From contig VGEV01000017.1 in NCBI GenBank assembly GCA_016869175.1, positions 1 through 39,147 of the forward strand: a stretch of DNA of 39,147 nucleotides, read 5' to 3'. The DNA comes from Alphaproteobacteria bacterium (lineage in GTDB: Bacteria; Pseudomonadota; Alphaproteobacteria; GCA-2731375). Position numbers and translations under genes: made by a program. Shown here one piece after another: positions 184 through 39,147 of the stretch (the first letter of the stretch is position 1; each line of letters opens with the position of its first letter). A model generated the notes under the pieces. It did not search any database, was not told the origin of the DNA, and saw nothing but the letters and a program-made list of their open reading frames with translations.

Positions 184-459
184 ATGGGGCTCTATCCGCG
201 CAAGGGCGCGATCGCCGCCGGCAGCGACGCCGACATCACGCTGCTGGATCCCACCCGGCGCGGCAAGATCCGCAAGGAGGATCTGCACGAGACCGATTAC
301 AGTCCCTGGGAAGGCCACGACATCTTCGCTTGGCCGGTCATGGACATCCTGCGCGGCAAGGTGGAGGTCGAAAACGGCAAACTGATGGCCAGCAACCGGG
401 ATGGCCGCTTCCACAAACGCAAGAGCCCGGCGGAGATCATCGCCGGTCCGGCATTGTAG
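184..459 (+). pseudogene. Hydantoinase/dihydropyrimidinase C-terminal remnant truncated by the IS
   Basis: 91 codons closely matching the C-terminus of the next gene (MGLYPRKGAIAAGSDADITLLDP...HETDYSPWEGHDI.AWP...ILRGK..VEN...KRK.PAEI..GPAL). Confidence 0.85.
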
Positions 460-470
460 CGGGGAGGAGC

Positions 471-1898
471 ATGCTCGATCTGCTGATCAAGGGCGGCCTG
501 GTGGTGACGCCCACCGGCGAGGCGCCACTGGACGTGGCAATCAAGGGCGAGCGCATTGTCGCGGTCGCGGCGCCGGGCGCCTTCGCTGCCGGCGAGGCCG
601 GCAGCGTCATCGACGCCAGCGGCAAGATCGTCATGCCGGGCGGCATCGACCCGCACGTGCATTGCCTGTGGCATCTGCCGCTGCCCGACGGCACGGCGAT
701 GCTGACCGACGGGCCGGAGAAGGTCAGCCGCGCGGCGCTGTTCGGCGGCACCACGACGATGATCGATTTCGCCGCCTGGTCGGTCGGTGAAAGCCTGCGG
801 CAAACTATCGAGAAGCGCGACCGCGAATGGCAGGGCCATTGCCACTGCGACTATTCCTATCACCTGATGCTGCGCGGCGCGCTGCCGCACCCCTTGATAG
901 GTGAGTTGGGCGAGGCGATCGATGCCGGCTACCCGACGGTGAAGATTTTCACCACCGACATCACGCCCAGCCGCAAGGGCCGCATGGTGGACTTCGGCGA
1001 CCTGTGGGAGGTGTTCCAGGTGCTGGCCCAGCGCCAGGGCCTTGGCGTGATCCACGCCGAGGACAACGACCTCGTCATGCATATGTACGAAAAGCTGATC
1101 CGCGAGGGCCGGGTCGGTTTCGAAAACATGGCGGAGGTGCACAGTGCCTTGTCGGAGGACCTGTCGTTCCGCCGCGTGCTGCGGCTGGCCGAAAGCGTGC
1201 CGGGCACCGCGCTCTACATGATGCATGTCAGCGCCGCGACCGGCGTTGCGGCCATCGCGGAGGCGCGCGCCAAGGGTCTGCCCGTCTATGGCGAGACGCT
1301 GCACCAGTACATGCTGTTCAGCAAGGACGACTACAAACGGCCGAACGGCCAGATCTATCACACCTATCCCTCGCTGAAGTCGGTGGCCGACCAGCGGGCG
1401 CTGTGGGCCGGCACGCTCTCTGGCGCGATCAACGCGGTGGCCACAGACGAAATCTGCTGCACGCTGAAGGTGAAGACGCTGGGCAACCGCATCGACGACA
1501 CAACCGGCGGCAACGCCGGCGTCGAGCCCCGGCTTGGCGTCATGTACACCGAGATGGTGGTACGCCGGGGCTATTCGCTGTCGCGCTATGTCGATCTCGT
1601 CTCCAGCAACGCCGCGAAGATCATGGGGCTTTATCCGCGCAAGGGCGCGATCGCCGCCGGCAGCGATGCCGACATCACGCTGCTCGACCCCCGCCTGCGG
1701 CGCCAGGTGCGCAAGCAGGACCTGCACGAGACCGACTACAGTCCCTGGGAAGGTCACGACATCTACGCTTGGCCCAGCCACACCATCCTGCGCGGCAAGC
1801 TGGTGGTGGAGAATGACAAGTTCCTTGGTAGCCCGGCGGATGGCCAATATCTGAAGCGCAAGATCCCGGCCGAGATCCGCCGCGGCCCCGCGCTCTAG
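471..1898 (+). CDS. Hydantoinase / dihydropyrimidinase family amidohydrolase
   Basis: GGIDPHVH metal motif, GGTTTMIDFA, TVKIF (candidate carbamylated Lys), IHAED, MHVSA, ATDE; RBS-like ggggagga before ATG at 471. Confidence 0.85.
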   Translation: MLDLLIKGGLVVTPTGEAPLDVAIKGERIVAVAAPGAFAAGEAGSVIDASGKIVMPGGIDPHVHCLWHLPLPDGTAMLTDGPEKVSRAALFGGTTTMIDFAAWSVGESLRQTIEKRDREWQGHCHCDYSYHLMLRGALPHPLIGELGEAIDAGYPTVKIFTTDITPSRKGRMVDFGDLWEVFQVLAQRQGLGVIHAEDNDLVMHMYEKLIREGRVGFENMAEVHSALSEDLSFRRVLRLAESVPGTALYMMHVSAATGVAAIAEARAKGLPVYGETLHQYMLFSKDDYKRPNGQIYHTYPSLKSVADQRALWAGTLSGAINAVATDEICCTLKVKTLGNRIDDTTGGNAGVEPRLGVMYTEMVVRRGYSLSRYVDLVSSNAAKIMGLYPRKGAIAAGSDADITLLDPRLRRQVRKQDLHETDYSPWEGHDIYAWPSHTILRGKLVVENDKFLGSPADGQYLKRKIPAEIRRGPAL

Positions 1899-1903
1899 GC
1901 CGG

Positions 1904-2206
1904 GTGGTGGCGGAGGCGGGCGAGCGCCTGGTCGAACTGCTGGGCGAGAGCCTGGCGGTCTGGAGGCTGGCCGGCCGTGTCGAGCGGCAAGGCGAGGCGG
2001 TTGTCGTGTGCGTCGCCGGTGCGGCGTCCTTGCGCATCGAGCCGCCGCCGCCCGGCCTGCCCTTTCGCTGGCTGCTGCGGGTCGGCGCACGGCAGCGCGG
2101 CATTTCCGGCCTGCCGGGCCTGCTGCGGCATCTGCGCGCGGAACTGGCACCCGAACGTGCCGCCAGCCGCCTGCGCCTGACGCCGCGCCCGTTGCTGCTG
2201 CCGTGA
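1904..2206 (+). CDS. Small hypothetical protein (about 100 aa), coupled to CobW
   Basis: Open frame between hydantoinase and cobW; its TGA overlaps the GTG start of cobW (GTGA at 2203-2206). Confidence 0.5.
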   Translation: MVAEAGERLVELLGESLAVWRLAGRVERQGEAVVVCVAGAASLRIEPPPPGLPFRWLLRVGARQRGISGLPGLLRHLRAELAPERAASRLRLTPRPLLLP

Positions 2207-3213
2207 TCCCCGTCGCCGTCCTGACCGGCTTTCTCGGCAGCGGCAAGACGACGCTGCTCGGCCACTTGCTGCGGCATCCCGACTTCGCGCGCACCGCCGT
2301 CATCATCAACGAGTTCGGCGAGATCGGTCTCGACCACGAACTGATTGAGGCGAGCGACGAGAGTTTCATCGAGCTGAAAACCGGCTGTGTCTGCTGCACG
2401 CTTCGCGGCGACCTGGTGCTGACGCTGGCCGATCTGCTGCGCCGGCGCGACCAGGGCGCGATCATACCGTTCGAGCGGGTGGTGGTGGAGACGACGGGCT
2501 TGGCCGATCCGGCGCCCATCCTGCATGCGCTGGCCAGCGACCCGCTCATGGCCGAGCGCACGCTGCTGCAGGGCGTCATCGTTACGGTCGACGCGCAGGC
2601 AGGTCTCGGCACGCTGGCGCGTCATGGCGAGGCGGTGAAGCAAGTGGCAGTGGCCGACCGGCTGGTGCTGACCAAGAGCGATCTCGGCGGGGCCGATCTG
2701 CCGGCATTGCGCGAGCGGCTGCGGCAGCTCAACCCGGCGGCGCCGCTGCAGGTCGCGCTTTTCGGCGCTCTCGATCCGGCAAGCTTGCTCGACATCGGCC
2801 CGGTCGATGCCGCGGGCAGGGCCGCCGACCTGACTGGCTGGTTGGCGGCAGAGGCTGTCGAGCGGCTCAACCACCATCGCAAGGGCGAGATCACGGCCTT
2901 CTGCATCACCCTCGACCGACCGGTCCGCGCTGTGACGCTGGCGCTGTTCCTGGAACTGCTGGCCGAGCATGCCGGCGAGGATCTGCTGCGCGTGAAGGGC
3001 ATCCTCGACATCGTCGAAAGCCCGGATCGGCCGGCCGTTATTCACGGCGTGCAGCACGTCTTCCATCCGCCGGCCTTCCTGCCGCGCTGGCCTTCGGCCG
3101 ACCATCGCGGCCGCATCGTCTGCATCGTGCGCTCGATCCCCCGGCGCTGGATCGAGCTGCTGCTGGCGATGCTGGAGGACGAGGTCGCCGTGGCGGAGGC
3201 GGCGCGCGGCTGA
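2203..3213 (+). CDS. CobW/COG0523-family GTP-binding protein
   Basis: Walker A TGFLGSGKTTLL, CVCCTLRGDL (CxCC metal motif), ETTGLADPAP, TKSD. Confidence 0.9.
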   Translation: MIPVAVLTGFLGSGKTTLLGHLLRHPDFARTAVIINEFGEIGLDHELIEASDESFIELKTGCVCCTLRGDLVLTLADLLRRRDQGAIIPFERVVVETTGLADPAPILHALASDPLMAERTLLQGVIVTVDAQAGLGTLARHGEAVKQVAVADRLVLTKSDLGGADLPALRERLRQLNPAAPLQVALFGALDPASLLDIGPVDAAGRAADLTGWLAAEAVERLNHHRKGEITAFCITLDRPVRAVTLALFLELLAEHAGEDLLRVKGILDIVESPDRPAVIHGVQHVFHPPAFLPRWPSADHRGRIVCIVRSIPRRWIELLLAMLEDEVAVAEAARG

Positions 3214-3343
3214 TGCCGGCGTGCGTGGGAACCGCTTGCGCGCGGCGGTCGATTGCGCTTCGGTGTGTCGGCCGCGGCGGCAAGGCCGTTTGCGGCGATC
3301 CGCCAAGGAGCAACCTGGAATTGACCATGACGGTTTTGCGGTG

Positions 3344-4549
3344 ATGTCGGCCCTGCGGCCCGACGCGCGCTGCGCGCTGGACGGCGTGCGCATCCTCGAT
3401 CTGTCGCGCGTGGTGGCGGGCAACGCGCTGACCGCATGGCTGGCCGACCAGGGCGCCGAGGTGATCAAGATCGAGCCGCCGGGCCGCGGCGACGACTTGC
3501 GGGGCTGGCGGGTCAAGGGCGTTTCCACCTATTGGAAGGTCTATGCCCGCAACAAGAAGAGCGTGACGCTCAACTTGCGCGATGCCCGCGGGCGCGACCT
3601 GCTGCTGCGGTTGGTGGCCGGCGCACAGGTGCTGGTGGAGAACTTCCGTCCCGGCGTGCTGGAGGAAATGGGCCTGGCCCCGGACCGTCTGTGGCAGGAG
3701 AACTCCAGGCTTGTGGTCGTGCGCGTCTCCGGCTGGGGCCAGGACGGCCTCTTTCGCCACAAACCTGGCTTCGGCAGCCTGGTCGAAGGCATGTCGGGTT
3801 TCGCCGCGATGAACGGCTTCGCCGACCGGCCGCCGGTGCTGCCGCCGCTCGCCATGGCCGACATGATCGCCGGCCTGTCGGGGGCGGCCGCCGTCCTGGT
3901 CGCGTTGCGCGAAGTGGAAGTGAAGGCCGGCGGGGGGCAGGTGATCGACCTGCCGCTGTTCGATCCCATCTTCTCGATCCTGGGGCCGAACGCCGCCAAC
4001 TTCCGCCTGAACGGCAAGGTCGAGCCGCGCGTCGGCAACCGCTCGCACACCACCGCACCGCGCAATGTCTATGCCACCAAGGATGCCGGCTGGGTTGCGC
4101 TCTCGGCCTCGACGCAGGGCATGTTCGAGCGCCTCATGCGTTCGATCGGTCGCGCGGAGCTGATCGCCGATCCGCGTTGCCTGGCGAATGCCGATCGGGT
4201 GAAGAACGTGGAGATGCTGGACGAGGCGATCGGCGGCTTCATCGGCCAGCGCAGCCTGGCGGACAACCTGGAGCATTTCGAGCGCGAAGGCGTGACGGTG
4301 GGGCCCATCTGCGACATCGCCGACCTGATGGAACACCCCTATATCAAGAGTCGCGGCGTCATCGTCGAAATTCCTGACGACGAGATGGGTTCGCTGCCGA
4401 TGCACGCGGTGCAGCCGCGGCTCTCGGGCACGCCCGGCGCCATCCGGCTGGCGGCACCCAGGCTCGGCCAGCACAATGCCGAGATCCTGGGCGCGCTCGG
4501 CCTCGACGCGGGCGAGTTGCGGCAATTGGCCGGGGACGGCGTTCTGTAG
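3344..4549 (+). CDS. CaiB/BaiF (class III) CoA-transferase family protein
   Basis: LDGVRILDLSRVVAGNALTAWLADQGAEVIKIEPPGRGDDLRGW, KKSVTLNLRDARGRDLLLRL, LVENFRPGVLEEMGL. Confidence 0.88.
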   Translation: MSALRPDARCALDGVRILDLSRVVAGNALTAWLADQGAEVIKIEPPGRGDDLRGWRVKGVSTYWKVYARNKKSVTLNLRDARGRDLLLRLVAGAQVLVENFRPGVLEEMGLAPDRLWQENSRLVVVRVSGWGQDGLFRHKPGFGSLVEGMSGFAAMNGFADRPPVLPPLAMADMIAGLSGAAAVLVALREVEVKAGGGQVIDLPLFDPIFSILGPNAANFRLNGKVEPRVGNRSHTTAPRNVYATKDAGWVALSASTQGMFERLMRSIGRAELIADPRCLANADRVKNVEMLDEAIGGFIGQRSLADNLEHFEREGVTVGPICDIADLMEHPYIKSRGVIVEIPDDEMGSLPMHAVQPRLSGTPGAIRLAAPRLGQHNAEILGALGLDAGELRQLAGDGVL

Positions 4550-4564: not shown

Positions 4565-5644
4565 ATGGCCGGTACGGTGCTCATCGCCGGTGCAACGGGA
4601 TTGGTTGGCGCCGCCGCGGTCAAGCATTTCGATGCCCTTCCCGGCTGGCAGGTGGTCGCCCTGTCGCGCCGTCGCCCGGACTATCCGTTTCAGGCCCGCT
4701 ACCTGGCACTCGACCTGACCGACCGCGCCGCTTGTCAACGGCAGCTGAGCGAGCTGCATGAGGTGACGCACGTCGTCTACGCCGCGCTGTTCGAGAAGGG
4801 TGACGTGGTCGCCGGCTGGCGCGATCCCGAACAGATGCGCACCAACGACGCGATGCTGCGAAACTTGATGGACCCGTTGCTGGCGGCGGCCGCCGATTTC
4901 CGGCACATCAGCCTGATGCAGGGCGCCAAGGCCTATGGTGTGCATGTGCATCATTTCGCGGCGCCGGCCAAGGAGCGCTGGCCGCGCGACCCGCACGACA
5001 ACTTCTACTGGCTGCAGGAAGACTATGTCCGCCAGACTCAGGCCCGGGCCGGCGGCTGGTGCTACACCATCTTCCGCCCGCATGTGGTGGTGGGCTTCGC
5101 GCCAAGGAGCCCGATCAACATTGTTGCCGCGATGGGCGCCTACGCCGCGATCCAGCGCGAATTGGGCCAGCCGTTGACTTTCCCGGGCGGGCCGCCCTTC
5201 GTACAGCAGATGTCGGACAGCCGATTGATCGCGCGCGCCTTCGCCTGGGCGGCCGAGGCGCCCAGCGCGGCCAACCAGACCTTCAATATCGCCAACGGCG
5301 ACATTGTGATCTGGCAACATCTGTGGCCCGCCATCGTCCGGCATTTCGGCATGGCGATGGGGCCGGCCGAGCCGCGTTCGCTGGCGCAGGCCATGCCGGC
5401 CCTATCGGCGGTCTGGGAGCGCATCATCGCCCGGCACGGCCTCAGGTCAACGCCGCTCGACGCGCTCATCGGCTCGTCCTGGATCTTCGCCGACTTCGTG
5501 TTGGGCCATGGCAAGCGGCCGAGCGCCACGGTGCTGTCGACTGTCAAGCTGCAACAGGCGGGCTTCGGCGACTGCCTGGACAGCGAGGATGCGCTGATCG
5601 ACTGGTTCCGCATCCTGCAGGAGCAGCGCATCCTGCCGCGCTGA
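4565..5644 (+). CDS. PRISE-like NAD(P)-dependent SDR (atypical SDR enone-reductase type)
   Basis: Rossmann motif IAGATGLVGAAAVKHF, SRRRPDYP, HVVYAALF, NFYWLQEDY candidate catalytic Tyr motif, RPHVVVGF. Confidence 0.8.
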   Translation: MAGTVLIAGATGLVGAAAVKHFDALPGWQVVALSRRRPDYPFQARYLALDLTDRAACQRQLSELHEVTHVVYAALFEKGDVVAGWRDPEQMRTNDAMLRNLMDPLLAAAADFRHISLMQGAKAYGVHVHHFAAPAKERWPRDPHDNFYWLQEDYVRQTQARAGGWCYTIFRPHVVVGFAPRSPINIVAAMGAYAAIQRELGQPLTFPGGPPFVQQMSDSRLIARAFAWAAEAPSAANQTFNIANGDIVIWQHLWPAIVRHFGMAMGPAEPRSLAQAMPALSAVWERIIARHGLRSTPLDALIGSSWIFADFVLGHGKRPSATVLSTVKLQQAGFGDCLDSEDALIDWFRILQEQRILPR

Positions 5645-5651
5645 AGGCGCG

Positions 5652-6830
5652 TCAGACCGGGCGGTTATGCCGGCGTTCCGGCGGGCTGTCGCTCAACAGG
5701 AAATCCGGCCCCAGGCCGTCGATGCTCGTGCAGCCCATCTGTGCCATGGTGAGCGAGATTTCGCTGGTCATGATGTCGATGGCGCGTTTGGCGCCGCCCA
5801 CTCCGCCGGCGGCGGCACCATAGAGCGTCGGCCGGCCGGCGAAGACGAACTTGGCCCCCAGGCACAAAGCGACGATGGCATCGGCCCCGCGTCGGATCCC
5901 GCCGTCCAGCATCAGCGTGACGCGATCGCCGACCGCCTCGCGGATCACCGGCAGCACTTCGAGCGGCGAAGGCGCGCGATCGAGCTGCCGTGCGCCGTGG
6001 TTTGAGACCATGATGCCATCGACGCCCAGCTCGGCCGCGCGCACCGCGTCGTCGGGATGCATGATGCCCTTGATGACGAACTTGCGCGGCCACAGCCGCC
6101 GAAAATCCTCCACGTCCTTCCAGGTTGGCGGCACCGGCATCTGCTGCTGGCTGAAATCGGCGACTTCGTCGGCACTGGCGCCGGCCGGGGCATAGGTTGC
6201 CCAATTGGGGAACATCGGGGTCCCGGTGCGCATGTATTCCGCCAGCCAGCCCGGATGCAGCAGTGCTTCCAGCCGCGTGCGCAGCGTCATCTTGAGCGGT
6301 CGGGTGAAGCCGTTGCGCAGGTTGCGTTCGCGTTTGGAATGCGCCGGCACATCGCAGGTCAGCACGAAGGTTGACAGGCCGGCATCGGCGGCGCGGCGGA
6401 TCATGTCCTCGGAAATCTTGCGATCCCGGGCCGGATAAAGCTGATACCAGCCGTGTTCGGGTGCCACCTTGCCCAGATCCTCGATCGAGGCGGTGGCGCT
6501 GCCCGACATGATGAAAGGAATATTGGCATCGCGCGCTGCGGCCGCCAGCATCAGATCGGCGCCGGGGCGGAACAGCGCGGCGATCCCCGTCGGCGCGATG
6601 CCGAACGGTGCGGCATAGCGCCGGCCAAACACTTCCTGGGTGGTGTCGCGCGTGCTGATGTCCACCATGTAGCGCGGCACGATGCGGTGGCGGCGAAACA
6701 TCGCTTCGTTGCGGGAGAGCCCGTCCTCGTCCTCAACGCCGCCTTCGATGAAGTCGAAGGCGATTTTCGGCAGCCGGCGCTTGGCCAGCTTGCGCAAGTC
6801 GTCGATGTTGATGGCGCTGTCGAGGTTCAT
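5652..6830 (-). CDS. FMN-dependent alpha-hydroxy-acid oxidase/dehydrogenase
   Basis: INIDDLRKLAKRRLPKIAFDFIEGGVEDE, PFGIAPTGIAALFRPGADL, VIKGIMHPDDA, GIMVSNHGARQLDRAPSPLEVLP, LMLDGGIRRGADAIVALCLGAKFVFAGRP. Confidence 0.92.
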   Translation of the reverse strand: MNLDSAINIDDLRKLAKRRLPKIAFDFIEGGVEDEDGLSRNEAMFRRHRIVPRYMVDISTRDTTQEVFGRRYAAPFGIAPTGIAALFRPGADLMLAAAARDANIPFIMSGSATASIEDLGKVAPEHGWYQLYPARDRKISEDMIRRAADAGLSTFVLTCDVPAHSKRERNLRNGFTRPLKMTLRTRLEALLHPGWLAEYMRTGTPMFPNWATYAPAGASADEVADFSQQQMPVPPTWKDVEDFRRLWPRKFVIKGIMHPDDAVRAAELGVDGIMVSNHGARQLDRAPSPLEVLPVIREAVGDRVTLMLDGGIRRGADAIVALCLGAKFVFAGRPTLYGAAAGGVGGAKRAIDIMTSEISLTMAQMGCTSIDGLGPDFLLSDSPPERRHNRPV

Positions 6831-8704: not shown

Positions 8705-10060
8705 TCAGGTGGCGAGCAGCGGGGTGCGGCGGCAATGCCAGTCGGTCGCCGCTTGGTAGGCGGCGCCGATGCGCAGCAGCAGGCCCTCCCGCCAGCGGGC
8801 GGCATGCAGTTGCAGGCCGATGGGCAAGCCGTCGGCCGTGAAGCCGCAGGGTATCGCCAGCCCCGGCACCGCCGCCCAGGAAAAGGGAAACGTGAAGCGC
8901 GTCAACTGGTGCGTCGTCGCCAGCATGTTGGTGGCATCGGCGATGGGCGGCGCGGGCACCGGCGTGGTCGGCGTCAGGATCGCATCGACCTCGCTGAACG
9001 CACGGTCCATCGTGCGCAACCAGCGCTCGCGCCAGCGCATAGCGGCGGCGTAGTCCGCGCCGCTCACGTTCTTGCCCAGCAGCAAGCGGCTCAGCACGTC
9101 CTCGCCGAACATTGCCGGCTGGCGCTCGGCCCGCTCGCGGTGGAAGGCATAGAGGTCGGCCCAGACGATGGGCATCATGCGGCCGTGCGCCTCCTCGGCG
9201 CCGTCGATGTGGATGTCGCGGATCTCGGCGCCCAGGCCGGCCAGCACGTCGGCCGCCGCCCTGACCGCCTGGCCGAAGCCGGGCGCCAGGTCCTGGAGGA
9301 AGAAATTGCGTGGCAGGCCGATCCGCAAGCCGGCGATGCCGTCGTCCAGGCGCGCCAGGAACTCCTCCCAGGGGTGGGGCACCGAACTGGTATCCTCGTC
9401 GTCATAGAACGCCATCACCGCGAACATGCGGGCAAGGTCGGCCACTGTGCGGGCCATCGGCCCGACGGTGTCGATCAGCGGGCAGAGTTGCAGCTTGCTG
9501 CCGCTCATCGGAATGGCGCCAACCGTCGGCCGCAATGCCGAGACGCCATTCACCGCCGCGGGCGTGCGCACCGAGCCGCCGGTGTCGGAGCCGACCGCGC
9601 CAACGCACATCTCGGCCGCCAGGGCCACCGCCGCGCCGCCGCTCGAGCCGCTGGGGATGCGCTCCGGGTCCCAGGCGTTGCGCACGCGGCCGAAATGCGG
9701 GTTCTGCGAGGTCGAGCCGTAGCAGAATTCGTGCAGGTTGGTCTTGCCGACGATCACTGCTCCCGCCTGGCGCAGCCGTTCAACGACCGGCGCATCCGCG
9801 TTGGGCACGTAGTCGCGAAAAAACAACGAGCCGTTGGTGCAGCGCACGCCGGCAACGTCGATGCAGTCCTTGACCGATATCGGCAGGCCGGCCAGCAGCC
9901 CGGAGCAGGCGCCGCGGTCCTGCTGGGCGTCGATCCGCTCGGCTTCCGCCAGGGCCTGCTCGGCCATGACGGTGATGAAGGCGTTCAGTCTCGGATTCAG
10001 CCGGGCGATGTTGTCGAGGCAGCGGCGCGTCGCCGCCACAGCGGATGGGGTTGTCGGCAT
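8705..10060 (-). CDS. Amidase signature family amidase
   Basis: GLPISVKDCIDVAG, GKTNLHEFCYGSTSQNPHFG, PSGSSGGAAVALAA, GSDTGGSVRTPAA (Lys-cisSer-Ser signature). Confidence 0.93.
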   Translation of the reverse strand: MPTTPSAVAATRRCLDNIARLNPRLNAFITVMAEQALAEAERIDAQQDRGACSGLLAGLPISVKDCIDVAGVRCTNGSLFFRDYVPNADAPVVERLRQAGAVIVGKTNLHEFCYGSTSQNPHFGRVRNAWDPERIPSGSSGGAAVALAAEMCVGAVGSDTGGSVRTPAAVNGVSALRPTVGAIPMSGSKLQLCPLIDTVGPMARTVADLARMFAVMAFYDDEDTSSVPHPWEEFLARLDDGIAGLRIGLPRNFFLQDLAPGFGQAVRAAADVLAGLGAEIRDIHIDGAEEAHGRMMPIVWADLYAFHRERAERQPAMFGEDVLSRLLLGKNVSGADYAAAMRWRERWLRTMDRAFSEVDAILTPTTPVPAPPIADATNMLATTHQLTRFTFPFSWAAVPGLAIPCGFTADGLPIGLQLHAARWREGLLLRIGAAYQAATDWHCRRTPLLAT

Positions 10061-10179
10061 GGCTTCCTGCGGATCTGCTGGGACCAGCGTTTCATGCTCG
10101 CGCCGGGCATGCAACCAGTGCCAAGCTGATGGTCTGCCGGCGGTCCGGCAGCAAGGCGATTTGGGCGACGGGGAATGCG

Positions 10180-11049
10180 ATGCGGCGGGTGGGCGAGTTC
10201 GAAGTGCGGCGGGTCGTGGAATCCGAGGGGCCGTTGCTGAAGCCGGAAGTATTCTTCCCGCAATCGACGCCGGATATCTTCGCCCAACATGCGCACTGGC
10301 TCAAGCCCCGGCATCTCGAGCCGGCCAGCGGCCTCTTGGTCTTGTGCATCCAGAGCTACCTCGTGCGCACCGGCCGCCATACCATCCTGGTCGATGCCTG
10401 CGTCGGCAACGACAAGGACCGAGCCGTGCACCGGCCAGCCTGGCACAGGCAGAACTGGCCCTATCTGGAAGACATGTGCAAGGCGGGTGTCAGGCCGGAA
10501 GAGATCGACTTCGTGCTCTGTACGCATCTGCATATCGACCATGTCGGCTGGAACACCCGCCTGCGGAACGGCCGCTGGGTGCCGACCTTTCCCAACGCGA
10601 AGTACATCTTCGCCCGCCAGGAATACGCCTTCTGGGAGGAGCGCCATCGCCAGGACGGCGGTGCGGGCCAAGGAATGGCTTTCGCCGACAGCGTGCTGCC
10701 GGTCATGGAAGCCAGGCAGGCGGTGCTGGTGGACACCGATCACGAGATCGCCGCCGGCGTCTGGTTCGAGCCGGCGCCCGGCCACACCGCCGGCAACGTG
10801 GTGGTCAACCTGCGGTCCGGGAGCGATCACGCGGTGCTGACCGGGGACGTGATCCATCATCCGATCCAACTCGTGCGGCCCGACTGGTCGAGCAGGGCCT
10901 GCGAGGATCCGGTGCAGTCGCATCGCACCCGGCGCGCCTTGTTGGAACGCTATGCCGACAGCGCAACGCTGTTCGCGCCGGCGCACTTCGCCTCGCCCAG
11001 CATCGGCCACGTGGTGCGCGCGGGCGAGCATTTCGCCTATCGCGACTAG
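10180..11049 (+). CDS. MBL-fold metallo-hydrolase
   Basis: VLCTHLHIDHVGWN (HxHxDH), APGHTAGNVVV, LTGDVIHHPIQL, AHF near the C-terminus. Confidence 0.88.
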   Translation: MRRVGEFEVRRVVESEGPLLKPEVFFPQSTPDIFAQHAHWLKPRHLEPASGLLVLCIQSYLVRTGRHTILVDACVGNDKDRAVHRPAWHRQNWPYLEDMCKAGVRPEEIDFVLCTHLHIDHVGWNTRLRNGRWVPTFPNAKYIFARQEYAFWEERHRQDGGAGQGMAFADSVLPVMEARQAVLVDTDHEIAAGVWFEPAPGHTAGNVVVNLRSGSDHAVLTGDVIHHPIQLVRPDWSSRACEDPVQSHRTRRALLERYADSATLFAPAHFASPSIGHVVRAGEHFAYRD

Positions 11050-37707: not shown

Positions 37708-37867
37708 CCGTTGACCTCCAGACAGCCGATCCGGTGGCTGGGCGTTCCCACTCGGTCCACACGGGGGCAAGACGCTGGGAGCCAAGCCGGAAGGCGCGCC
37801 CGACTGTTGCGCCACCCTTCCAGCCGGCCGCCAAGCGGCGGGCAACACGGCCAATTCGGCGAAAAGT

Positions 37868-37975
37868 GAGATTTGGCTGCCGTTCCTGAAGACCTATCGC
37901 ACCATGTGCCTTGCGCCCAAGCCCGAATTTCGGCGAGTCCTTGAGGAAATCCGCGAGTTGCGGCTGGCGGCCTGA
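37868..37975 (+). pseudogene. Possible C-terminal remnant of an unidentified gene
   Basis: In-frame EIWLPFLKTYRTMCLAPKPEFRRVLEEIRELRLAA* without a plausible complete gene upstream; the composition looks protein-like. Confidence 0.3.
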
Positions 37976-38067: not shown

Positions 38068-38421
38068 ATGACCGGTGCGAGGGAGAAGTTCGGGGCGTTC
38101 ATCCGCCGCGAACGCGAAGGCAAGGAGATCGGATTGCGCGAAATGGCGAAGATGATCGGGGTGAGCCCCACCTACCTGTCGAAGGTCGAGCGGGACGAGT
38201 TCCCGCCGCCGGCCGAGGACAAGGTCCGGGCGATCGCCGGGATCATCGGGTGCGACACAGACGATCTGCTGGCGCGGGCCGGGCGCGTCTCGACCGACAT
38301 CACCGACATCATCAAGCGCCATCCGGTCGAGTTGGCGGCGCTCCTGCGCACCACCAAGGGCCTGACGGCTGATGATATCGCCCGGCTGGCGCGGCAGGCG
38401 CAAAAGGCGAAGGACGACTGA
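38068..38421 (+). CDS. XRE-family HTH transcriptional regulator
   Basis: FGAFIRREREGKEIGLREMAKMIGVSPTYLSKVERDEFPPPAEDKVRAIAGIIGCDTDDLLARAG. Confidence 0.93.
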   Translation: MTGAREKFGAFIRREREGKEIGLREMAKMIGVSPTYLSKVERDEFPPPAEDKVRAIAGIIGCDTDDLLARAGRVSTDITDIIKRHPVELAALLRTTKGLTADDIARLARQAQKAKDD

Positions 38422-38471
38422 CGGCCCGCCGACCCGGGCTTCAACGATGCAGATGAAAGGCTGACGATCCG

Positions 38472-39107
38472 ATGGCAAAGCGAGTTCCCTACCTTCACGA
38501 GGAGCAGATCGAACGCGACGCTGCGGCGCTGCTGGCCGAGTACGAGCAAGCGCTCGGCGTGACGATCCTCCGAGTTGTCCCGATCGAGGACATCGTCGAG
38601 AAGCATCTGAAGCTCGGCATCGAGTTCGACGACATGCACCAACTGCTCCGCGTGCCGCGTTCCGGCCTTGGCCTCGATCCCGACATTCTTGGAACAATGT
38701 TCTTCGACGAGGCCATGACCCGCCGCGCGCTCGACCTGCTCGGCTCGCGCCGCAACGATCGCTACGAGGCCGCGCTGGCGGCGCTGCGGGAGGATGCGCG
38801 GGACCGGTGGACGGACAGGCTGGCCCGCGATCCCGACGAGTTGGACGAGGGCGAGGAGGCGGCCACGCCCGACGAAGACGGCTTGCGCCGCTTCCTCGAA
38901 GGGACGGTGATGCCGTGGTTCGATGGGCGCAAGAAAGAACTCGCCAACCGCCCGCTGATCCGCGAACAGGCGTTCGGCGAGGCGCTCGACCCCGACAAGC
39001 TGGAGCGGCTCGGCCGCTACGAGGTGCACCTCGACCGCAAGCTCGAACGCATGCTGGCCATGCTGCTGCGCCTCAAGGACCTGCGGGCGGGCGCCGTTCC
39101 CGGGTGA
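38472..39107 (+). CDS. Chimeric ORF: ImmA/IrrE-like N-terminus joined to an unrelated C-terminus
   Basis: The N-terminus VPYLHEEQIERDAAALLAEYEQALGVTI...VPIEDIVEKHLKLGIEFDDMHQLLRVPRSGLGLDPDILGTMFFDE resembles ImmA/IrrE partners of XRE. No HExxH follows; the C-terminus is charged and helical (RYEVHLDRKLERMLAMLLRLKDLR). Confidence 0.6.
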   Translation: MAKRVPYLHEEQIERDAAALLAEYEQALGVTILRVVPIEDIVEKHLKLGIEFDDMHQLLRVPRSGLGLDPDILGTMFFDEAMTRRALDLLGSRRNDRYEAALAALREDARDRWTDRLARDPDELDEGEEAATPDEDGLRRFLEGTVMPWFDGRKKELANRPLIREQAFGEALDPDKLERLGRYEVHLDRKLERMLAMLLRLKDLRAGAVPG

Positions 39108-39147
39108 TCCGTTTGGCAAAACAGCGCCCAAGAGCCCGGGTCCTTCC

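Follow-up and report, generated by a model that had tools for sequence, protein, structure and literature searches.

ImmR-ImmA, CapH-CapP and DdrO-IrrE are systems in which DNA damage activates a protease that then cleaves the partner repressor (PMC10233336), and ImmR-ImmA is the regulatory pair of ICEBs1 and TnSmu1 (PMC8960796, PMC10233336). The window analysed here, the whole 39,147-nt stretch of contig C17 (VGEV01000017.1) in a draft genome of 285 contigs, ends in a variant of this arrangement, which the initial annotation had described as an XRE regulator followed by a second ORF that begins like ImmA/IrrE and carries no HExxH. Both ORFs are present, separated by 50 bases, and neither HExxH nor HExxxH occurs in the 211-aa second ORF or in the six frames of 38400-39147. 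That annotation had considered the second ORF a chimera, arising either from a deletion that fused two genes or as a new sensor architecture in which a helical domain replaces the protease. We conclude, with a probability of roughly 0.92, that a single deletion within an integrated, element-like block of genes produced this ORF, which is hence an ordinary decay product.

The 117-aa XRE protein contains a helix-turn-helix domain (Pfam HTH_31, PF13560; E=3.9e-11; 43.5 bits, cut-off 27), shares 115 of its 117 residues with the copy at locus L008 and has a dN/dS of 0.05 relative to that copy, indicating an intact and well conserved gene. The 211-aa ORF gave no match in Pfam (even at E<=1), NCBIfam or PHROG. 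With the fused protein as query, a single contig from a genome of the same class (G058) was hit at two distinct sites, each within a longer open frame: residues 1-88 at 87025-87291, in an ImmA/IrrE gene of 257 aa that immediately follows a nearly identical XRE gene, and residues 70-211 at 80816-81241, in a 269-aa gene further down. This contig is the one of locus L008; further loci came from a pattern scan of genome contigs. In L008, L009 and L011 an intact ImmA/IrrE protease of 257-260 aa comes after the same XRE gene, and the charged helical tail of the fused ORF corresponds to the C-terminal 132 aa of another gene, 269-276 aa long, that lies approximately 5.6-5.8 kb downstream, behind primase and helicase genes. 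The order and strand of the two parental genes are the same in these three loci and in L010, a partial copy on a 5.4-kb contig that begins at the ImmA gene and has only 3.1 kb between the two parents. Residues 1-79 and 80-211 of the fused ORF match two different genes in the same relatives. Residues 1-79 align with intact ImmA/IrrE proteins, so the homologous N-terminal region is present; this remnant has 71-84% nucleotide identity to the ImmA genes of L008, L009, L010 and L011, and 69% identity to the L010 query over query residues 1-105. For the remnant of the last gene, nucleotide identity is 91% to L008, 88% to L010, 86% to L009 and 79% to L011.

Table 1. Coordinates of features at the end of the window and of protease genes with the HEGGGH motif in related loci.
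Feature	Position	Strand	Remark
Left edge of homology common to element copies	37850..37975	+	End of small ORF ...LPFLKTYRTMCLAPKPEFRRVLEEIRELRLAA (stop)
Intact XRE/HTH repressor, 117 aa	38068..38421	+	ImmR/CapH-like by position
Chimeric ORF, 211 aa	38472..39107	+	Two separate parents
ImmA/IrrE gene remnant, first ~80 codons, without zinc site	38472..38714	+	Nucleotide identity to relatives
Deletion junction, 9-base microhomology GACGAGGCC	38706..38714	+	Both parents fit
Remnant of the last gene of the element, 132 C-terminal codons out of 269-276 (all-helical protein)	38706..39107	+	
Right flank common to L009, L014, L015 and L017, reaching contig end	39108..39147	+	Nucleotide comparison
HEGGGH-bearing ImmA relative, L008	3918-4691		
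HEGGGH-bearing ImmA relative, L010	14-790		
HEGGGH-bearing ImmA relative, L011	1184-1966		
HEGGGH-bearing ImmA relative, L036	~5443-6210		

Nucleotide comparison places the onset of homology on the left at 37895 relative to L008 and L009 and at 37850 relative to L011. From 37895 the window matches the left part of the parental block up to 38714 in L011 (38710 in L008 and L009), and the match to the right part begins at 38706 in L008, L009, L010 and L012 (38697 in L011) and extends to approximately 39121-39147. The left parent (L011, encoding ...FFDEARIVID...) fits the window up to ...TTCGACGA(A/G)GCC, and the right parent (L009) fits it from GACGAGGCCATGACC. Since the left fit ends and the right fit starts within the same nine bases, these belong to both parents, and such identical ends point to slippage or microhomology-mediated joining. 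The junction lies close to the place (FFDE/AMTRR) where a switch between the two halves had originally been suspected, and the fused ORF keeps its frame with no internal stop.

Judged by the spacing in L008, L009 and L011, the window lacks about 5.6-5.8 kb, a segment that starts at codon ~80 of the protease gene and reaches as far as codon ~137 of the last gene. In the intact L008 ImmA protein the only PF06114 match (31.7 bits, cut-off 22) covers residues 97-178, wholly beyond the cut, and in relatives the HExxH zinc motif and the third ligand are encoded downstream of it; both are absent in the fused ORF. On a structural model of L011 ImmA (mean pLDDT 76) the cut falls at about residue 77, between the strands 72-75 and 80-84 and ahead of the zinc helix at 93-118, and therefore no catalytic residue is left. 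It runs through the middle of the sheet of the ImmA fold rather than along a domain border. The last gene, for its part, has lost its first ~137 codons, which constitute its conserved N-terminal half. No other M78 peptidase was detected in the genome with a family profile that was positive in 7 of 14 control genomes.

The solved chains nearest to the L011 ImmA model are CapP (7t5t, the best fold match), PprI and IrrE (3dti, 8sln), and a sequence search of the PDB with the intact ImmA relatives likewise retrieved CapP alone (E=9e-11). Four of the five intact ImmA/IrrE relatives carry HEGGGH, a HExxxH motif with one extra residue between the histidines, within an otherwise M78-like flanking sequence, the fifth (L009) having the usual HEVGH. 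Among 385 genomes of the class, a DNA-pattern search found HEGGGH in two. HEXXXH has been reported in some metallopeptidases of polyvalent proteins (PMC5512222), and we found no published description of it in M78.

The fusion was not met again in a pattern scan of 84,980 genomes with six peptides, including one that spans the junction, nor in searches of IMG/VR and of complete genome assemblies from the class (overlapping sets of 143 and 385 whole genomes); since peptide-pattern scans reach close relatives only, rare or diverged copies could be missed by the first of these. When the junction DNA was searched in five genomes of the group, a match across it was obtained in the window's own genome alone, with none in the four others that carry parts, and the fused protein has no match in plasmid collections. 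The deletion reading is supported because the junction was seen only in its own assembly and each half is a separate intact gene in relatives. According to this reading, a parental XRE-ImmA block would have lost the 5.6-5.8 kb between the protease gene and the last gene, the two ends being joined at the nine-base identical stretch by slippage or microhomology, with the frame retained by a one-in-three chance. As one deletion in three keeps the frame, an open frame is accounted for without invoking any function, and the joined protein would be functionless. The intact XRE protein would remain as a repressor without its cognate protease, which would leave the rest of the block locked in a repressed state. 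Since the protease is gone and the genome yielded no other M78 peptidase, the repressor is probably no longer cleavable by a partner.

The principal rival, to which we give only a slim chance, is an assembly or strain-mixture artefact, whereby the sampled cells carry an intact element whose two ends were joined by the assembler. The draft is fragmented into 285 contigs, and C17 stops at 39147, just 40 bases past the stop codon of the fused ORF. Moreover, the genome includes a separate contig of 3.9 kb (C221, locus L024) whose primase-helicase module, at 206-3263, shares 86% identity with the part of the L008 interior that the window lacks. However, the shared stretch at the junction is just nine bases, below the usual assembler word length, which makes a misjoin over it unlikely, while strain mixture keeps a small probability, the more so with C221 bearing a related module; the flanks of C221 (1-205 and beyond ~3263) match no copy, and the assembly yielded neither ImmA nor the last gene in full length. 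With such flanks C221 was rejected as simply the missing interior, and its sequence suggests that it is probably another, differently built copy. A 56-base match in a further contig, C60 (E=5.9e-4), was taken as chance, and a search of the genome for the contig that would adjoin C17 on the right found none.

Two other alternatives grant the fused protein a function. We regard it as very doubtful that the protein is made and still binds XRE through its ImmA N-terminus, acting as a protease-free partner or decoy that silences the remaining element. Substitutions private to the window number 10 nonsynonymous and 6 synonymous, against 67 and 56 in relatives (P=0.6). In these small counts no relaxed constraint is seen, which, like the retained open frame, counts against a functionless remnant and would fit either a deletion that happened very recently or continued selection on the protein. 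Least credible of all is a working new architecture, in which the ImmA N-terminus binds the repressor or acts as a sensor and the helical tail replaces the protease: the open frame, the intact XRE gene directly upstream and the absence of relaxed constraint in these small counts are in its favour, but the fusion does not recur in the genomes searched, the cut splits the ImmA fold within its sheet, the last gene is left without its conserved N-terminal half, and both parents are ordinary separate genes elsewhere.

The parental block has the order XRE, ImmA/IrrE, small ORFs, primase (or primase/helicase), two small proteins and the 269-276-aa helical protein. Its interior encodes a TOPRIM primase (PF13362, DUF7146) and a 651-aa partner, in place of which L009 has a single protein of 865 aa containing a RepB-primase domain. 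None of the element ORFs was recognised as an integrase or a conjugation gene. The last gene, present in full in L008 at 9590-10399, has no match in plasmid or phage collections and its full-length L008 version gave no Pfam, NCBIfam or PHROG family; a low-confidence structure model (pTM 0.45) is all-helical. Its N-terminal ~70 aa (TRFNALRHGVLSR...EEHLVEELAGILWRKRRLR) recur at ~40-46% identity in two other genomes, at six places in G144 (loci including L052, L065, L071, L073 and L074) and three in G327 (L054, L067 and L072). An IMG/VR contig (L033, 1-3110) carries a relative with 48% identity downstream of ORFs that, read by eye, resemble an Erf-like annealing protein and a YqaJ-like exonuclease, a setting that may hint at a role of the last gene in phage DNA recombination or replication.

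Decay is also evident in other copies. Of the last gene, L013, L014, L016 and L017 have nothing but the 3' end, with stops or foreign sequence upstream, and L015 combines an internal deletion with premature stops. L010 contains, at 2551-3753, a different in-frame fusion, of a helicase-like ORF to the last gene (...DATGWRV joined to AEAAAHRRGL...), generated by the internal loss of ~2.7 kb in comparison with L008; it is independent of the fusion in the window. The window copy is one more decayed copy of an element that often decays. From reading translations, the right flanks of L009, L011, L012 and L036 contain FitAB- or Phd-like toxin-antitoxin genes and those of L011, L012 and L036 also contain type I restriction genes (HsdR/HsdM-like), giving a recurring neighbourhood of the XRE-ImmA-primase block with defence genes.

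A chimeric ORF that invited the new-sensor reading is therefore explained by one deletion with both parents at hand, which removes a false lead. The locus provides a natural example of an XRE-protease switch whose protease is gone, and draws attention to an XRE-ImmA-primase block that decays repeatedly and lies beside restriction and toxin-antitoxin genes in Proteobacteria. Compared with the described systems, it resembles ImmR-ImmA in that, within an element-like block, the gene of a short XRE repressor precedes one of the ImmA/IrrE family in the same orientation, an arrangement that is intact in L008, L009 and L011, but differs in that the protease gene in the window is cut before its zinc site, so that the cleavage step is absent. 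Similarity to IrrE/PprI-DdrO of Deinococcus lies in the M78 fold of the intact relatives (3dti, 8sln), although identity is only ~15%, the setting is that of a mobile element and the window copy is devoid of the zinc site. CapP (7t5t) is nearest to the intact relatives by both sequence and fold and, in keeping with the role of CapH-CapP as regulators of anti-phage operons, several element copies adjoin type I restriction or toxin-antitoxin genes; in contrast to CapH-CapP, however, CBASS genes were not seen, the protease domain is missing from the window copy, and the pair precedes primase/helicase genes.
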